Made by a program: the position numbers and the translations under genes. A model generated the notes under the pieces. That model was not told the DNA's origin and ran no database searches. It was given only the letters and a program-made list of their open reading frames with translations. Shown one piece after another: positions 15,680-22,054 of a stretch of DNA of 34,036 bases. The stretch's first letter is position 1. Every line of letters begins with the position of its first letter. This DNA comes from Cyclobacteriaceae bacterium. Its GTDB lineage: Bacteria > Bacteroidota > Bacteroidia > Cytophagales > Cyclobacteriaceae. The stretch covers positions 1-34,036 of the forward strand of contig JALONI010000025.1 of the NCBI GenBank assembly GCA_025455015.1, in the 5' to 3' direction.

Positions 15680-18148
15680 TTACAAACTCTCCGTAAAAAA
15701 TTCGCGCTTCACCCGCTCACTCGTGCTGGTGAGCAGTTCGTACGGGATGGTGCCAATGGCCCGTGCCACCTCCTGTATCGGGTGGCCGTTGCCAAAAATG
15801 ATAACGTCATCGCCTTCGCGCGCATCAATGCCCGTGATGTCGATCATGGTCATATCCATGCATACGTTACCGATTACCGGTGCCAGTTTGCCGTTCACCC
15901 ACACCTTTCCGGTTCCGTTGCTGAACGCGCGGCTGAAGCCATCCGCATAGCCAATGGCAATGGTGGCTACGGTGCGATCGCCCACGGCCGTGCCCTTGCG
16001 CCCGTACCCAACGGTAGTGCCGCGGGCCACGTTCTTAATCTGCGATATGGTTGTCTTCAGGGTGGCCACGGGCGTCAGCCCGGGCACCGGTTCAGCGGTG
16101 GGGCTCACGCCATACAGCCCAATGCCCAGCCGCACCATGTCAAACTGAAATTCGGGCAGCCGCAGAATGCCCGCGCTGTTCAGCAAATGCCGCATCGGGC
16201 GGATGTTCAACGCAGCCGTGATTTTTTCATAGCCGCGCAAAAAAACCGCGGCCTGCGCGCGCGAGTAGTCATCGTGTTGGGGCTCATCGGCCCCGGCCAG
16301 GTGTGAAAACACCGATGCCACCCGCACGTGAGGATGGGCGCGCAACAACGCAATGGCGTGGTCCCATTCATCTTCCGCCAAACCAAGGCGATTCATGCCC
16401 GTTTCCAATTCCAGATGGATGTCGATCTCCTTTTCGCCCGCCAGCGCAAGCACCAATCCCTCCAAAAAAGAAAGGCTGTAGACGCTGGGCTCCAGCCGGT
16501 GGGCCAGCAGCAAGGGCACATGGTGAACGGACGGGTTCATGACCAGGATGGGCAATTGAATAAACTTGCTCCGCAGCTCGGCCCCTTCGCTCGGGTAAGC
16601 CACGCCCAGGTAGTCCACCCGGTGGTAGGCCAACATGCCCGCCACTTCCTCGCTGCCGCTGCCGTAGGCAAAGGCTTTCACCATCACCATGGTTTTGACG
16701 CCCGGCCGCAGGCGGTTGCGAAAAAAATTCAGGTTATCAATCATCGCTTTGATGTCGATCTCCATCACGGCATTGTAATGTTTGCGCTGCAGCCGCTGCA
16801 CAATGCGCTCCAGGCGAAACGCCCGTGCCCCTTTGATCAAGATGGCTTCATCGTGAAAATCGTCAGGCGAGAAGGAGTCAAGGAAATCCTCCGCGGAGGG
16901 AAACACGCGCACCGCGAACGGCAGCGTCTCCATCAACGCCCGGTGCGCCACCATCAGGGGGCCGATGGCAAACACGCGATGAAGCGTATGCCTTTTCAAT
17001 AGCTCCACCACCTTGGTCACGATGGCTTCGGAAGTCAGCCCGGTTTGGAAAACATCCGACAGGACAACGGTCTTTCGGGGCCGCAGCTCGCCCGACAAAA
17101 ACTCCAGGCTCACGCGCAAACCCTCCAGGTCAATGTTGTAGGTGTCATCCACCACGCGGCAGTTGTGGATGCCTTCCAGGCGTTGCAACCGCATGGGCAC
17201 TTGTTTGATCTGATCCAACAAAAGCGGCAGGCGCGCGGGCGGCATGCCTCGGCTGAGCAACATGACTACGCTGTGCAAAATGTTTTCGCGCGTGGCGCTG
17301 TCGCGGGCAGCCAATGTGAAGGTGCATGTTTGGGTGGCGGTCGATAAGGTGACTTGATCTCCGTGCTCGGCCAGTTGCCATACCGCATGGCGCGCGGTTC
17401 CCCAACTGACCCGGTTTTTGTTCGGATAGGTTTCCCGCATCAATGCATCGATCAGCGGATGATCGGCACAATACACAACGGTGTGACAGCGCGCAAAAAG
17501 AAGCAGTTTCTCGCGCACTTTTTCTTCGCGGCTGGCGAACCCTTCGTCATGCGCGCTGCCAATGTTGGTGAAGATGCCTTGCGTGGGCGCGATCATGTGC
17601 TCCAACCGGGCCATCTCGCCCGGCTGCGAGATGCCTGCCTCAAAAATGCACGTGGGCGAATCGGTGCGGCCGTGAAGTGCCCAAACGGACAGCGCCACGC
17701 CAATCTGCGAGTTGTAGCTGCCCGGGTTCTTGACCACCGGATTGGGCCCGTCCGCCAGAAATTGCGACAGCAACTCTTTGACAATCGTCTTGCCGTTGCT
17801 GCCCGTAATGGCAATGACATCCTGCGTACGGGCATGTTCGCGTGCATGCAACGCCAGGTCTTGCAGCGTGCGCAGCGATGACTCGGCCAGAAAAAAATTC
17901 GCATCCGCGTAAGCGCCCACCTCTATGGCCGCTTCCACCACAAACTGCCGGATGCCGGCCCGGTAGGCATCGGCAATAAAGGCATGCCCGTGTTGGCGCG
18001 GGCCGGGCAGGGCGATGAACAAGGCCTCGGCCGAGGCAAATGCCTTGCGCGTATCGGTGATCAGAAAATGGATGGCGCTCCCGTGGGCTTGTTGTAAAAC
18101 AGAACCGGCCGTGAGCGAAGCAAGGTCAGAAAACGTCATGGGCAACAT
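15680..18148 (-). CDS. murF-alr: Bifunctional UDP-MurNAc-tripeptide:D-Ala-D-Ala ligase / alanine racemase
   Basis: This is an 822-residue fusion found in Bacteroidota. The N-terminal MurF half (to about 450) has the ATP loop ITGSNGKT at 114-121, NPGSYNSQIGV and FTNIGSAHDEGF. It adds D-Ala-D-Ala to the peptidoglycan precursor. The C-terminal Alr half starts at about 452 (AVMEIDIKAMIDNL) with PLP Lys491 in VKAFAYGSG, ETGMNRLG, and a C-terminal VNGKLAPVIGNVCMDMTMID that carries the racemase signature. One protein can thus make D-Ala and use its dipeptide. ATG 18148 overlaps the csaA stop as TGATG; ATG 18139 is an alternative. The racemase loop has Phe where VKADAYG is usual, which is common in these fusions. 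Confidence 0.96.
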   Translation of the reverse strand: MLPMTFSDLASLTAGSVLQQAHGSAIHFLITDTRKAFASAEALFIALPGPRQHGHAFIADAYRAGIRQFVVEAAIEVGAYADANFFLAESSLRTLQDLALHAREHARTQDVIAITGSNGKTIVKELLSQFLADGPNPVVKNPGSYNSQIGVALSVWALHGRTDSPTCIFEAGISQPGEMARLEHMIAPTQGIFTNIGSAHDEGFASREEKVREKLLLFARCHTVVYCADHPLIDALMRETYPNKNRVSWGTARHAVWQLAEHGDQVTLSTATQTCTFTLAARDSATRENILHSVVMLLSRGMPPARLPLLLDQIKQVPMRLQRLEGIHNCRVVDDTYNIDLEGLRVSLEFLSGELRPRKTVVLSDVFQTGLTSEAIVTKVVELLKRHTLHRVFAIGPLMVAHRALMETLPFAVRVFPSAEDFLDSFSPDDFHDEAILIKGARAFRLERIVQRLQRKHYNAVMEIDIKAMIDNLNFFRNRLRPGVKTMVMVKAFAYGSGSEEVAGMLAYHRVDYLGVAYPSEGAELRSKFIQLPILVMNPSVHHVPLLLAHRLEPSVYSLSFLEGLVLALAGEKEIDIHLELETGMNRLGLAEDEWDHAIALLRAHPHVRVASVFSHLAGADEPQHDDYSRAQAAVFLRGYEKITAALNIRPMRHLLNSAGILRLPEFQFDMVRLGIGLYGVSPTAEPVPGLTPVATLKTTISQIKNVARGTTVGYGRKGTAVGDRTVATIAIGYADGFSRAFSNGTGKVWVNGKLAPVIGNVCMDMTMIDITGIDAREGDDVIIFGNGHPIQEVARAIGTIPYELLTSTSERVKREFFTESL

Positions 18149-18477
18149 CAATGGAGGCGCTGGCCGTTGGGCACGGGCTTGTCCGGCACGCAAAGTACAA
18201 CATCGCCCTGCTCATCCTGAAAGCCGGTCACCAATACTTCGGATAGAAACGGACCGATTTGCTTGGGCGGAAAGTTGACCACACATACCACCTGTTTGCC
18301 CACCACCGTTTCCGGGCGGTAATGCCCGGCAATCTGTGCGCTGGACTTTTTGATGCCCTCCGCGCCCAAGTCGATCCACAGTTTAATAGCGGGTTTGCGG
18401 GCTTCGGCAAACATTTCGGCCTTCACCACCGTTCCAGTCCTGATTTCAACTCGTTCAAAGTCGCTCCACTCTATCAT
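18148..18477 (-). CDS. csaA: tRNA-binding chaperone-like protein CsaA
   Basis: This is a 109-residue single OB-fold tRNA-binding domain: [29 protein letters not shown] is the family start (only residues 1-12 are diagnostic), then [35 protein letters not shown] and the closing [16 protein letters not shown]. CsaA binds tRNA and has chaperone/secretion activity in Bacillus; its function in Bacteroidota is untested. ATG 18477 is chosen over an upstream in-frame GTG at 18486 because it matches the family start. It is translationally coupled to murF-alr (TGATG) and divergent from the small secreted protein across 51 bases. Confidence 0.92.
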
Positions 18478-18490
18478 GGCAGGCACTTGG

Positions 18491-18517
18491 TTGGTTCGCT
18501 TTTTTTCCCTTCATTTG
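18491..18517 (+). promoter_or_regulatory. Candidate promoter of the small secreted protein
   Basis: A TTGG at 18491-18494 and a TTCATTTG at 18510-18517 resemble the -33 and -7 (TAnnTTTG) elements at the right spacing (19 bases apart). This would put the transcription start just before the ATG at 18529. The single mismatch in the invariant A of the -7 box lowers confidence. Confidence 0.35.
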
Positions 18518-18528
18518 CTATCCCCGTT

Positions 18529-18888
18529 ATGAACACACGTCAAGCTAGTTATGCATTTTTTGCAAGTTTCGCACTGCTCATGGCTGGAAACGTTGCCTGG
18601 GCACAGGAAGAGAACACCGAACTGCCGCTGCCTGCGCACCCCACGGAAGAGCGGGTAGAACGCATCGAGCCTCCGGTCGAAGACGGGTTTCCCGTACAGG
18701 AACTGGATGGTAAATCCGTCCGCAACACAGCCCCTGCCAAAGAGGAAAAGAAAGACTCCGAACGGGCAGGTACTAAAAAACTGGGCGATAAAGCAACTGC
18801 CCGAAAAAATGATGACGATGCGCTCTCGTTCAACTTCCTGTACTACCTGATCCAAAAATTCAAGGTCAGCGACCTGATCGAGAATTAG
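18529..18888 (+). CDS. Small secreted hypothetical protein
   Basis: This is a 119-residue protein with a clear signal peptide (hydrophobic residues about 8-24, cleavage after AWAQ). The mature region is charged and probably disordered: Pro/Glu-rich (PLPAHPTEERVERIEPPVE), then Lys/Glu-rich. The C-terminus is more ordered and hydrophobic (SFNFLYYLIQKFKVSDLIEN) and might pack against a membrane or partner. No known family was recognised. ATG 18529 is chosen because it begins the signal peptide; the open frame upstream has no plausible start. It sits alone between csaA and the TonB receptor. Confidence 0.7.
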   Translation: MNTRQASYAFFASFALLMAGNVAWAQEENTELPLPAHPTEERVERIEPPVEDGFPVQELDGKSVRNTAPAKEEKKDSERAGTKKLGDKATARKNDDDALSFNFLYYLIQKFKVSDLIEN

Positions 18889-18934: not shown

Positions 18935-18955
18935 TAACTTTGCAACCTTGTTGCA
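18935..18955 (+). promoter_or_regulatory. TonB receptor promoter with overlapping TGCAACnnnGTTGCA operator
   Basis: TAACTTTG (18935-18942) fits the TAnnTTTG -7 box exactly. Its last two bases begin a perfect inverted repeat, TGCAAC (18941-18946), CTT, GTTGCA (18950-18955). The same composite occurs before the lipoprotein gene at 21375-21395. A dimeric repressor bound here would cover the -7 box and the transcription start. The 15-base dyad has the size of Fur-family (for example Zur) boxes, but the regulator is not in this window. Confidence 0.65.
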
Positions 18956-18959
18956 TGTT

Positions 18960-21356
18960 TTGAAGGCGGTATTCACTTTTTTTTTGCTAGGATATGCGGT
19001 TGCGCTGGTTGCCCAAACCAACTGTGGTTTTCGCTTGCGCGGACGCGTGCTCAACGAATCGCAAGAACCCCTGGCCGGAGCCACCGTGGTGTTGACCGAA
19101 CCGTCCAAAGGCGAAAGCACCAACCAGGAAGGAGCCTTTGAATTTCGGAACGTGTGTGCCGGGCGCTACACCGTGGAGGTGCGGTTTGTAGGCTACCAGG
19201 CCCAGCAGCAGGTGGTATCCGTTCCGCAATCGGACGATGTCGTTTTCGCCCTGGTGGTTGACGCAACGCAATTAAACGAAGTAGTGGTCACCGACAGGCG
19301 GGCCGAAAACCCCGTGAGTACCGCCACGGTAATCACCGCCAAACAACTGGAGGCGGCACCGGGCAAGAGCCTGGGCGAGGTATTGCAAACCGTGTCGGGC
19401 GTCAACAGCATCCAAAGCGGGCCGGCCATCTTCAAACCGGTCATCCATGGCGTGCACAGCCAGCGCGTACTGATCCTAAACAACGGCATCCGGCAGGAAG
19501 GGCAACAGTGGGGCGCAGAGCACGCACCCGAAATCGACCCCTTTACCGCCCACACCATTACGGTGATCAAAGATGCCGGGGCGATCAAATACGGTACTGA
19601 TGCCCTGGGGGGCGTCATCATCATCACGCCCGCAGAGCTGCCGGAGGAGCCCGGATTGGGCGGTCAGGTGAATATGATCGCGAACTCCAACAACCGGGGG
19701 CTCACGTTTTCGGGCATGCTGGAGGGCGGCTTGGCCAAGCCGGGGTGGGGTTGGCGTGTGCAGGGCACGGGCAAGTACGCGGGCGACTCACGCGCCCCTG
19801 ACTATGTGCTCTCCAACACGGGCTTTCGCGAACAGAATTTTTCGGCCGCCTTGGGGTATCACCGGAAAAACAAGGGCGTGGAGGTGTACTACAGCCAATT
19901 CAACACCGAAATCGGAATCCTAAAAGGATCATCTACCTCCAATGGCAACGACTTGGTGGCGGCCATTGAAAACGAACCTCCCCGGCTGACGGCTCCGTTT
20001 ACGTATGCCATTGGGCAACCACGCCAAGAGGTGAGGCACGACTTGATCAAACTCAATGGCCACCTCAGCCAAGGAGCGCATACCTGGCAGGTACAGTATG
20101 GATTCCAATACAACGAACGCCAAGAGTTTGACATCCGCAGGGGCAGCCTGCGCCAACGGCCGCAATTGGCCTTTGATCTGTTCACCCACACCCTGGACGT
20201 AGACTGGGAAACCGCGCACGAGAATCGGATCCGCTGCCGCGGTATCAACGGCATGTTTCAGGACAATAACAAAATAGACGGCACCTCCACCATCCCTTTT
20301 ATTCCCAATTTCAGGCATTACTCGGTGGGTGCCTTTTGGATCGAGCAGTTTCGGGGCCCGCGTTGGGATACCGAAATCGGTGTGCGTTATGACTATCGCC
20401 TCTACGATGCTTCAGGCTTCACCCTTCTCAATCGGCCCTATGAGTCGCAGGTGCAGTTTCACAACATGAGCGGCACGCTGGGTGCCACACGCAAGCTGAG
20501 CCCCGGGCATAAGCTCATCAACACGCTGGCCACCGCCTGGCGGCCGCCCAACGTGGCCGAGTTGTACAGCGCAGGAACTCACCAAAGCGTGGCCACCATC
20601 GAGTATGGGCTGCTGCTCACCCCGGATGGCACTGCGGTCAGGGACTACCGAGACAGTAACGTGCGGCCGGAGCAGGCCGTTAAGTGGGTCAGCACATATC
20701 AATGGACGGCCCGCGCGTTTTCGCTCGAGGTGTCGGCTTACGCCAACTACATCGCCAATTATATTTACTTGCGCCCCCGCGGTGTGAACAGCACCATCCG
20801 CGGGTTTTTTCCCCTGTCGGTCTACACCCAAACCGATGCTTCGTTTTTGGGAGCCGACCTGAAAACAACCTGGCAGTGGAATCGTGAACTTTCCAGCGAA
20901 GCAAAAGCCTCGTGGCTGCGCGCCACCGATGAACGCGAAAACGACTTCCTGATCTTTATCCCATCCAACCGCGTGGAGTTATCCATGCGGTACGAACCCC
21001 ACCGTACCCTTGGCACTGCGCGTCTTTTTGCGGAAGCGCGTGGCCGCTACGTAGCCCGTCAGCAGCGCGCGCCACGCGTGGTGCGGATGCCTGACATCAT
21101 CGACAACGCCCTGATGGGCCGAGACATCATTGAAGAAGACCCGCGCAACTTTGATTTTGTGGCACCGCCCCCTGCTTACGTGTGGCTGGGCTGTTCGGTA
21201 GGTGCGGAAATACCGGCCGGAAAAACGCGCATGACCGTGCGGCTGGCCGCGGAGAACTTGCTCAACACTTCGTATCGCGAATACACCAACCGCATGCGCT
21301 ACTATGCCGATGAAGTGGGTCGGAATATCAACCTGGCGCTCAAGTGGGCGTTTTGA
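18960..21356 (+). CDS. TonB-dependent outer-membrane receptor
   Basis: This is a protein of about 798 residues. A signal peptide (to about residue 19, ending VAQ) is followed by a carboxypeptidase-D-like beta-sandwich (25-100; LRGRVLNESQEPLAGATVVL) and a plug domain (about 105-225) with VVTDRRAENP and GAIKYGTDALGGVI. A 22-strand-type barrel ends in LALKWAF with terminal Phe. The plug segment QQWGAEHAPEIDPF is typical of a Bacteroidota receptor group often found beside the lipoprotein type encoded downstream. It takes up a ligand across the outer membrane with TonB energy; metal uptake is suggested only by the operator. No in-frame ATG exists near the start. TTG 18960 is preferred because it gives a clean signal peptide; TTG 18948 lies inside the operator. 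A run of nine T lies in the signal region. Confidence 0.9.
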   Translation: MKAVFTFFLLGYAVALVAQTNCGFRLRGRVLNESQEPLAGATVVLTEPSKGESTNQEGAFEFRNVCAGRYTVEVRFVGYQAQQQVVSVPQSDDVVFALVVDATQLNEVVVTDRRAENPVSTATVITAKQLEAAPGKSLGEVLQTVSGVNSIQSGPAIFKPVIHGVHSQRVLILNNGIRQEGQQWGAEHAPEIDPFTAHTITVIKDAGAIKYGTDALGGVIIITPAELPEEPGLGGQVNMIANSNNRGLTFSGMLEGGLAKPGWGWRVQGTGKYAGDSRAPDYVLSNTGFREQNFSAALGYHRKNKGVEVYYSQFNTEIGILKGSSTSNGNDLVAAIENEPPRLTAPFTYAIGQPRQEVRHDLIKLNGHLSQGAHTWQVQYGFQYNERQEFDIRRGSLRQRPQLAFDLFTHTLDVDWETAHENRIRCRGINGMFQDNNKIDGTSTIPFIPNFRHYSVGAFWIEQFRGPRWDTEIGVRYDYRLYDASGFTLLNRPYESQVQFHNMSGTLGATRKLSPGHKLINTLATAWRPPNVAELYSAGTHQSVATIEYGLLLTPDGTAVRDYRDSNVRPEQAVKWVSTYQWTARAFSLEVSAYANYIANYIYLRPRGVNSTIRGFFPLSVYTQTDASFLGADLKTTWQWNRELSSEAKASWLRATDERENDFLIFIPSNRVELSMRYEPHRTLGTARLFAEARGRYVARQQRAPRVVRMPDIIDNALMGRDIIEEDPRNFDFVAPPPAYVWLGCSVGAEIPAGKTRMTVRLAAENLLNTSYREYTNRMRYYADEVGRNINLALKWAF

Positions 21357-21395
21357 GTTGTCAGCAGCCTTTCCTAAATTTGCAACTATGTTGCA
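21352..21395 (+). promoter_or_regulatory. Lipoprotein promoter with the same TGCAACnnnGTTGCA operator
   Basis: A TTTG at 21352-21355 (overlapping the receptor's stop) and TAAATTTG at 21375-21382 form a good -33/-7 pair. The -7 box runs into TGCAAC (21381-21386), TAT, GTTGCA (21390-21395), the same dyad as before the TonB receptor. Transcription would start near 21388, giving a leader of about 20 bases before the ATG at 21410. The lipoprotein therefore probably has its own promoter, controlled together with the receptor. Confidence 0.65.
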
Positions 21396-21409: not shown

Positions 21410-22054
21410 ATGAAGCTTTTCAATCGTTTTTTGTCTGTCTTTTGTGTTGGCGCACTGGTTGTTTTTTCGGCTTGCGAAGACGATGATCCCACCCCTGAAA
21501 ACGTTCCCGAGGTGATTACGCGGGCAGAGTTAACGTTTACCGCCATCGATAATTCCAGCGCCCCGGCCGTTGTGGTCACCGCCACGGATGCCGATGGCAT
21601 CGGCTCTGCGGAGGAATTGGAGGCCGATGGCCCCATTAACTTGCGCGCCAATGTAACGTACGCCCTCTCGATAAAACTTTACAACGACCTCTTTGACGCA
21701 GGTGAGGAAGGATATGATGTGACCGAAGAGGTTGACGAAGAAGACGAAGAACATTGGTTCTTCTTTGGATTTACCTCCGGGGTGTTTTCCAACCCTACCG
21801 GCAACGGCAACATCATCAGCGCCAGCTTCCCCAACAATGGCACCGTTCGCTATGCGGATGAAGATGACGATGGCCGCCCGCTGGGCTTGCTTACCAACTG
21901 GACCACCATCAACGACAATTCAGGGTCGGGCAAGATCTTCCGCGTCATCTTGAAGCACTTTGATGAGGTGGAAAAAACCGATGATTCGACATCAGACGAT
22001 GGCGAGACCGACATTGACGTGACGTTTGTGATCAATGTGACACAGCCTTCGTAA
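21410..22054 (+). CDS. Surface-type lipoprotein ('type 1 periplasmic-binding fold superfamily' group)
   Basis: This is a 214-residue lipoprotein with a signal peptide and lipobox VFSAC (Cys22), followed by acidic EDDD. Acidic residues right after the lipid-modified Cys are the surface-export signal of Bacteroidota. The body matches a group of small lipoproteins named in databases as type 1 periplasmic-binding fold superfamily: ITRAELTFTAI, an acidic YDVTEEVDEEDEEHWFFF segment, ADEDDDGRPLGL, ILKHF and a closing GETDIDVTFVINVTQ. The acidic EEVDEEDEEH stretch with one His could bind metal (inference). The function is unproven. The ATG 53 bases after the receptor's stop is preceded by its own promoter/operator, and a strong terminator follows. 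Confidence 0.82.
   Translation: MKLFNRFLSVFCVGALVVFSACEDDDPTPENVPEVITRAELTFTAIDNSSAPAVVVTATDADGIGSAEELEADGPINLRANVTYALSIKLYNDLFDAGEEGYDVTEEVDEEDEEHWFFFGFTSGVFSNPTGNGNIISASFPNNGTVRYADEDDDGRPLGLLTNWTTINDNSGSGKIFRVILKHFDEVEKTDDSTSDDGETDIDVTFVINVTQPS

Follow-up and report, generated by a model that had tools for sequence, protein, structure and literature searches.

Two inverted repeats, TGCAAC-N3-GTTGCA, stand 5' of the adjoining genes for a TonB-dependent receptor and a lipoprotein in a 34,036-nucleotide stretch of DNA from a Cyclobacteriaceae bacterium (GCA_025455015.1, contig JALONI010000025.1; the whole stretch is called the window here). Sequence comparisons suggest, with a probability of about 0.87, that both are operators of Zur, a zinc sensor of the Fur family, and copies of this box elsewhere in the genome very likely mark a Zur regulon. 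A first-pass annotation had drawn attention to the composite TAAnTTTGCAAC-N3-GTTGCA 5' of each gene, and had placed it correctly: the window holds exactly two copies (TAANTTTGCAACNNNGTTGCA, exact at 18935-18955 and 21375-21395). The 15-base-pair (bp) core box within them, TGCAACNNNGTTGCA, has its exact copies in the window at 18941-18955 and 21381-21395 alone. Core and composite alike averaged 0.00 copies in 100 dinucleotide-preserving shuffles of the window; at two mismatches or fewer the core is not enriched (3 observed, 3.05 expected). As that annotation had also seen, the dyad starts inside a TAnnTTTG box, the -7 promoter consensus of Bacteroidota, at both window promoters, the first two bases of the operator being the last two of the TAnnTTTG. 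Transcription in Bacteroidota starts a few bases 3' of the -7 box; if this spacing holds here, the repeat would cover the transcription start site in both promoters. The open reading frame (ORF) list puts the receptor start at TTG 18948, within the box; the likely start is TTG 18960 (MKAVFTFFLLGYAVALVAQ, signal-peptide-like), which is separated from the box by 4 bases. Translation of the lipoprotein probably begins at ATG 21410; TTTTG occurs 19 bases upstream of the lipoprotein -7 box. The features of the region are as follows.

18935..18942, + strand: -7 box TAACTTTG of the receptor gene, part of an exact composite; 11 of 26 boxes at receptor relatives show the same arrangement.
18941..18955, + strand: predicted Zur-type operator TGCAACCTTGTTGCA, exact copy, with 2 bases common to the -7 box; also found at relatives of the receptor gene.
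18960..21356, + strand: TonB-dependent receptor with a CarboxypepD_reg-like N-terminal domain, heme/ZnuD-like group (Pfam, NCBIfam; presumed TTG start).
21375..21382, + strand: -7 box TAAATTTG of the lipoprotein gene, part of an exact composite.
21381..21395, + strand: predicted Zur-type operator TGCAACTATGTTGCA, exact copy; a box lies 5' of the lipoprotein gene in 37 of 78 relatives.
21410..22054, + strand: lipoprotein of 214 residues with a signal sequence, lipobox Cys22, an acidic EEVDEEDEEH segment and a predicted beta-sandwich, assigned to no family (Pfam/NCBIfam, alignment, AlphaFold2, Foldseek).

The strongest evidence for this reading comes from loci chosen with no regard to the box. 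We fetched 80 public loci by alignment to the lipoprotein (the best 80 of 506 confirmed relatives; mainly Cytophagales, Flavobacteriales and Saprospiraceae), and counted in them the general looser form of the box, TGCAAYNNNRTTGCA. Exact matches to it number 77 in 750,542 bases, distributed over 50 of the 80 loci, against none for the reversed sequence and 0-1 for each of 20 permuted palindromes; 55 of the 77 lie between script-called ORFs. Because the selection of loci in no way favoured the box, this count carries the most weight. Directly before the lipoprotein gene (-350 to +60, with two of the 80 loci left out because their upstream sequence was too short), the looser form is present without mismatch in 28 of 78 loci, with one mismatch in nine and with two in none, giving 37/78 at one mismatch or fewer, and TGCAAC-N3-GTTGCA itself is exact in 21/78. 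The reversed control yielded 0/78 at zero or one mismatch and seven loci at two. A box at one mismatch or fewer also precedes the receptor in 24 of 71 loci (control 0/71), and in 13 of these 71 loci a Zur-like gene, of the type that we call L019 below, stands directly before the receptor, itself preceded by a box in 12 of the 13. The signal is unusually clean across several Bacteroidota orders. Chance, by which the two window palindromes merely fall near promoters, finds a foothold in the counts at two mismatches or fewer, where the pattern is at chance level; it is already contradicted by the 77 exact boxes against 0 and 0-1 in the controls. Exact copies, absent from shuffles and control, are found again beside related genes of many genomes; we give this explanation next to no credence.

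The overlap with the -7 box, which the first-pass annotation had treated as a fusion of operator and promoter, proved directional among relatives. A TAnnTTTG ends in the receptor box in 11/26 cases on the sense strand and 0/26 on the antisense strand, and in the lipoprotein box in 8/46 and 2/46, respectively. Counting only TA at -6/-5, the sense and antisense figures are 12 vs 1 for receptor boxes and 17 vs 5 for lipoprotein boxes. Fusion to the -7 box hence characterizes many receptor and lipoprotein promoters without being universal among them.

The genome-wide search that the first-pass annotation had proposed was run on all 3,419,346 bases (154 contigs). The exact 15-bp box occurs four times in these 3.42 Mb, every time 5' of a gene, with 0 copies of the reversed control, contrary to the scatter at random positions named there as a refutation; the lipoprotein site was scripted as intra-ORF in locus L002, since the script used GTG at 21344 as the start. 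The targets are of zinc type, including a ZigA-like COG0523 operon. Three of the four sites are fused to a -7 box:

Site 1: TonB receptor 18960-21356; fused to the -7 box.
Site 2: lipoprotein 21410-22054; fused to the -7 box.
Site 3: C82:3347 (locus L016); TATATTTG directly before the box, fused likewise; ZigA-like operon.
Site 4: C130:5176 (locus L017); 48 bases 5' of the gene for an ABC-2-type ATPase, after which come two DUF3526 permeases; no TAnnTTTG fusion.

Site 3 is followed by genes for a protein with a CFFCGG stretch, for a His-rich lipoprotein that has 14 His among its 133 residues, and for a CobW/COG0523 GTPase, which scores 564.6 bits against the ZigA NCBIfam model (cut-off 600). 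On the other side of site 4 are a cobalamin riboswitch (93.5 bits) and a BtuB-like receptor, named by its role and riboswitch. The exact box has only two one-mismatch copies, at C130:7800 and C37:62002, the latter intra-ORF. The former lies, unfused, 5' of a second TonB receptor (772 residues), with a MacB/FtsX-like transporter and another CFFCGG protein beside it. The small regulon foreseen in the first-pass annotation hence takes the shape of four exact copies and one one-mismatch copy, 5' of the ZigA-like COG0523 operon, two TonB receptors, the lipoprotein and the ABC-2 transporter. Weaker copies are not callable from the letters alone because the box at two mismatches or fewer occurs 99 times, against 101 for the control. 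The looser form at one mismatch or fewer gives 22 copies vs 14 for the control. Among its 18 one-mismatch copies, C130:7800 was taken as a likely site and C37:62002 is intra-ORF; ten others were scanned (L010, L170-L178), of which nine lie inside ORFs and L170 is intergenic, and six fell outside the scan. None of these copies other than C130:7800 is counted as a regulon member.

A search with PF01475 found two Fur-family genes in this genome, L018 and L019. L019 (C127:1015-1425) encodes 137 residues with a Fur-family domain (PF01475, 53.8 bits in the Pfam scan), and its best relative among solved structures is FurB, a zinc regulator. A profile of the L019 group (17 sequences) matches E. coli Zur best (4mtd, 1.9e-12), and Cys79 aligns with the sensing-region Cys of E. 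coli Zur and mycobacterial FurB, a zinc ligand in both. This Cys is kept in 20 of 22 L019 relatives encoded at receptor loci and is missing in L018, while His92, His94 and both CxxC pairs (C97, C100, C133, C136) are present in 22/22. The receptor-locus proteins are 34-48% identical to L019. Over the 80 lipoprotein loci taken together, an upstream box at one mismatch or fewer accompanies 14 of the 22 L019-type genes (control 0/22). The suggestion of a Fur-family sensor such as Zur thus gains support from the Zur-type Cys of L019, its Zur-best profile match and the boxes often carried by its relatives at the receptor. L019 fails the NCBIfam Zur model NF008646 (34.1 bits, cut-off 167), which argues against that equivalog, not against zinc sensing; the name Zur for L019, a putative one, rests on context and metal site. 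In a FastTree phylogeny rooted on L018, the smallest clade with all 27 stand-alone L019-type proteins of the order holds 18 of the 22 receptor-locus ones (modest support, 0.69), and no receptor-locus protein groups with L018. From the tree and the box counts, the L019-type group is one, with autoregulation mainly in its receptor-linked members. A shorter, diverged Fur-family protein (L071:2614-2985, L097:2069-2449; 35-37% identity to L019) is encoded divergently from box-bearing genes, lacks the sensing-region Cys in L071, and is possibly a second regulator type.

The regulator and the box also travel together. Exact boxes occur in 164 of 292 genomes of the order (reversed control 28/292), and an L019-type protein at E < 1e-20 in 227, with nine weaker matches scored as absent. 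The exact box is found in 155/227 genomes with the regulator and in 9/65 without it (Fisher p 2e-15, uncorrected for kinship, a value that overstates independence, since the genomes are related). In the genus of the window, the box count is 4 and 2 in the two genomes that have the regulator and 1, 0 and 0 in the three that lack it, a comparison weaker than it looks, as the only box of G060 and one of the pair in G147 lie inside ORFs. The predicted link from L019 to the box rests on this co-occurrence and on L019 being the only Fur-family protein of the genome with a Zur-type Cys.

These data bear on the other Fur-family protein. L018, which adjoins purA (a gene name given by sequence), most resembles Fur and PerR structures and is the stronger Fur match (99.5 vs 49.8 bits in the PF01475 search); were it to bind the box, the regulon would answer iron or peroxide rather than zinc. 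The best NCBIfam models for the receptor are of hemoglobin/heme types, heme-group TonB receptors are often iron-regulated, and the gene of L019 itself lacks a box. On the other hand, the box co-occurs with L019-type genes, the co-occurrence having been run for the L019-type regulator only; the 80 lipoprotein loci contain 22 L019-type genes and no ORF that best matches L018; and the partners of the box, a ZigA-like COG0523 protein and a His-rich lipoprotein, are of zinc type. We consider control by L018 improbable.

A motif-first sample gives a more mixed picture of the box and its neighbors. Around exact sites, 60 loci were taken among the matches listed, an uneven sample, and in 25 of them a reference gene is first or second from the site: the receptor in nine, a second-type receptor in one, the lipoprotein without receptor in three, a ZigA-like gene in six, a remoter CobW gene in one, FtsX/MacB in three, ABC-2 in one and a Zur-like gene alone in one. 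One ZigA-like gene of this sample is ~0.3 kb away, and several ORFs were given too early a start and run over the box. Small membrane proteins stand at other loci; the remaining ones hold flavoproteins, M43 peptidases, other lipoproteins or further genes, and some of their boxes are inside ORFs. We scanned for the looser form in 30 genomes, of which 24 lack an exact box. A ZigA-like match is present in 13, full-length in eight (one with an internal stop), and in 8/8 full-length loci the operon is preceded by a copy that has 1-2 mismatches, e.g. TGCAACAATATTGCA; seven of the eight come from genomes without an exact box, and two have a further two-mismatch copy elsewhere.

Several gene families recur in the motif-first loci. 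Small membrane proteins near exact boxes (L058:2599-2976, L060:1866-2459, L075:2630-2980, L097:2462-2929) are all four Pfam MerC (PF03203), the one in L075 standing before a ZigA-like gene; we regard such MerC-type proteins as candidate zinc importers rather than mercury proteins. Thioredoxin-reductase-like flavoproteins that begin close to exact boxes are found at L065:1512-2420 (Pyr_redox_2) and, by similar N-terminus, at L057:2569-3477 and L055:1500-2489. An M43 peptidase with GEVED and fn3 domains lies 3' of an exact box at L068:2886-5001, and similar N-termini place others in L072, L076, L081 and L084; in L068 and L076 the box is flanked on its other side by a gene that is presumably GldN-like.

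Taken together, we propose that a zinc-bound Zur dimer (L019) would sit on TGCAAC-N3-GTTGCA, overlapping the last bases of the -7 box and, in all probability, the transcription start, so that RNA polymerase would be kept off both promoters. When zinc falls, Zur would release the DNA, and the outer-membrane TonB receptor and its partner lipoprotein would be made. Loci with the same operator would add the ZigA-like metallochaperone with its His-rich lipoprotein, the ABC-2 transporter and the second TonB receptor, together a zinc-scavenging regulon. We infer binding of this DNA by L019, zinc as the signal, repression by occlusion and zinc uptake by the receptor-lipoprotein pair.

A number of observations weigh against this scheme. 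No box at two mismatches or fewer occurs within 2.9 kb around the L019 gene of this genome, and only 1/27 stand-alone L019-type genes, L019 included, has an upstream box at one mismatch or fewer (27 genes from 30 loci of the order; three loci had no labelled ORF). The direct link between gene and box therefore rests on the receptor-linked copies, and the rarity of the box at stand-alone zur genes tempers our confidence in the Zur reading and lends a little to two competing explanations. At zur genes there is no bias toward -7 fusion (TA at -6/-5 in 3/17 sense and 3/17 antisense). The exact box is missing from 72 of the 227 regulator-bearing genomes, for which the looser form accounts only in part; 41/78 lipoprotein loci have no box at one mismatch or fewer directly before the lipoprotein, some of them having one before zur or the receptor instead; and ~35 of the 60 motif-first loci have no zinc-type neighbor labelled by BLAST. 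To our knowledge DUF3526 permeases are not known for zinc, and of 30 DUF3526 loci (1.5-kb flanks, which may leave the promoter outside) 27 have no copy at one mismatch or fewer and three have one one-mismatch copy. Finally, the NCBIfam scores of L019 are slightly higher for the PerR model (36.6 bits) than for Zur (34.1), both far below cut-offs.

This last score, with the hint of cobalt or B12 in the box that adjoins the cobalamin riboswitch and BtuB-like receptor on C130, would allow an L019-type regulator to bind the box in response to a metal other than zinc (e.g. nickel, manganese, cobalt). The alignment of its sensing Cys with those of E. coli Zur and mycobacterial FurB points to zinc instead, as do the ZigA-like gene at 6/60 motif-first loci, paired with a His-rich partner in this genome, and the occurrence of the same palindrome 5' of znuABC-zur in Desulfovibrio, as given in PMC545781. 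A different signal metal thus appears unlikely, and zinc remains our preferred signal. The C130 intergenic region (L017:5176-5444) combines a Zur-type box and a cobalamin riboswitch between the ABC-2 transporter and the BtuB-like receptor, and joint zinc/B12 control there is possible.

The window receptor comprises PF13715 (CarboxypepD_reg-like), PF07715 (Plug) and PF00593 (barrel) domains, and its NCBIfam scores (TIGR01786, 133.7 bits; ZnuD NF038289, 73.9 bits) are both far below cut-offs, that for ZnuD being 950; it would thus be ZnuD-like in its presumed role only. Upstream of it (18148-18888) are a minus-strand tRNA-binding protein, which we take to be CsaA-like, and a small secreted protein, in the same order as at L104:1694-2487. 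The lipoprotein matches nothing in Pfam or NCBIfam. Ten of its residues are invariant in 49 relatives (C22, E34, Y84, E107, H115, D152, G159, L181, H183 and D201), including its only two histidines, H115 and H183; the search peptides took in the EExEHxF and GxTD stretches, so that the conservation of H115, D201 and their surroundings was in part selected for, that of H183 not. The invariant histidines would fit, without proving, metal capture, and the lipoprotein may serve to capture zinc. AlphaFold2 predicts a beta-sandwich (mean pLDDT 87.7, pTM 0.81; 69.1 in an earlier run with six sequences). With Foldseek, no hit among solved structures fell below E 1e-3 (antibodies came closest, 5.5e-3, TM ~0.3), and a profile search of solved structures gave no match. 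The lipoprotein is also encoded in L243 and L249, labelled Gemmatimonadaceae and Gemmatimonas; a receptor precedes it in L249, and in neither does a box at one mismatch or fewer stand before the lipoprotein.

The CFFCGG stretch is invariant in 11 sequences of its family (L016:3451-3897, L017:10212-10652), which recurs beside ZigA-like and MacB/FtsX-like genes; the protein has no Pfam or NCBIfam name, its best match in a profile search of solved structures is at E 0.68, and a provisional label, DUF3299, was unconfirmed by Pfam and dropped. ABC-2/DUF3526-type genes like those of C130 occur in six of the 80 lipoprotein loci (L182, L183, L197, L199, L201, L220), a recurrent partner of the receptor-lipoprotein pair. 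Regarding established zinc transporters, this genome has no match to ABC-3 (ZnuB, PF00950). That absence is not a family trait, because 35 of 60 genomes of the family hold an ABC-3 match (30 at E < 1e-20); four ABC-3 loci scanned had no box at one mismatch or fewer. Nor had the two loci around the two ZIP matches of the genome, which fall in one frame at C53.

Comparison with known systems places the box among Zur sites already predicted. A 2004 paper (PMC545781) gives ATGCAACNNNGTTGCAT as the predicted ZUR site 5' of znuABC-zur in Desulfovibrio vulgaris and D. desulfuricans, two sites in all. The 15-bp core palindrome is identical to the window box, and the regulated operon includes a Fur-family gene; the box is not new because the same palindrome was predicted there as a Zur site. 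The comparison covered the boxes, and the targets differ: znuABC-zur in Desulfovibrio (PMC545781), and TonB receptors, the lipoprotein, ZigA-like and ABC-2 genes in Bacteroidota. Unlike Desulfovibrio with its znuABC, the window genome gave no ABC-3 match with PF00950. In Caulobacter, PMC4176598 treats a zinc repressor together with TonB-dependent outer-membrane proteins, resembling the receptor and Zur-type box seen here; its motif, GTTA-N5-TAAC, described as conserved in many proteobacteria, differs from TGCAAC-N3-GTTGCA. Both ZnuD (NF038289) and the window receptor are TonB receptors of the heme-like group, the latter differing in its extra CarboxypepD_reg domain and lipoprotein partner. ZnuD is under Zur control, as the window receptor would be. 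SusC/SusD and HmuR/HmuY are Bacteroidota pairs of a TonB receptor and a neighboring lipoprotein. The window pair is like them in this arrangement, and its lipoprotein is unlike SusD/HmuY in having no family model, no profile match to a structure and no fold match below E 1e-3.

In the portions of the literature covered by our search, with regulon databases such as RegPrecise outside it, we found no description of a Zur box for Bacteroidota or of its target set, nor of the unnamed lipoprotein family. The main text of a 2018 review of Zur regulons contains none of the strings 'bacteroid', 'flavobacter' and 'cytophag' (PMC6103462). Among the papers listed, titles on the letters of the pattern with zinc, and titles and the beginnings of abstracts on MerC with Zur, offered nothing relevant.

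A broader and rather speculative reading, which we hold to be doubtful as a whole, joins these elements into a surface zinc-capture machine of Bacteroidota with a substitute for ZnuABC. In it, the TonB receptor would be paired at the surface with a new lipoprotein family, and the lipoprotein would bind zinc through two invariant histidines and an acidic helix; Zur, receptor and lipoprotein would form one conserved cassette under an ancestral Zur box; and an ABC-2/DUF3526 or MacB-like transporter with the CFFCGG periplasmic protein would replace ZnuABC at the inner membrane in lineages without it, the present one included.

On the narrower Zur reading, Bacteroidota have a candidate regulon for zinc whose box is defined, and likely zinc-starvation genes may be annotated by sequence from that box. 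The window promoters also exemplify the fusion of a predicted operator with a promoter element characteristic of Bacteroidota. Overall, the box marks candidates for a role in zinc among unnamed or misnamed families, namely the lipoprotein, the CFFCGG protein, the MerC-type membrane proteins and the DUF3526 transporters.

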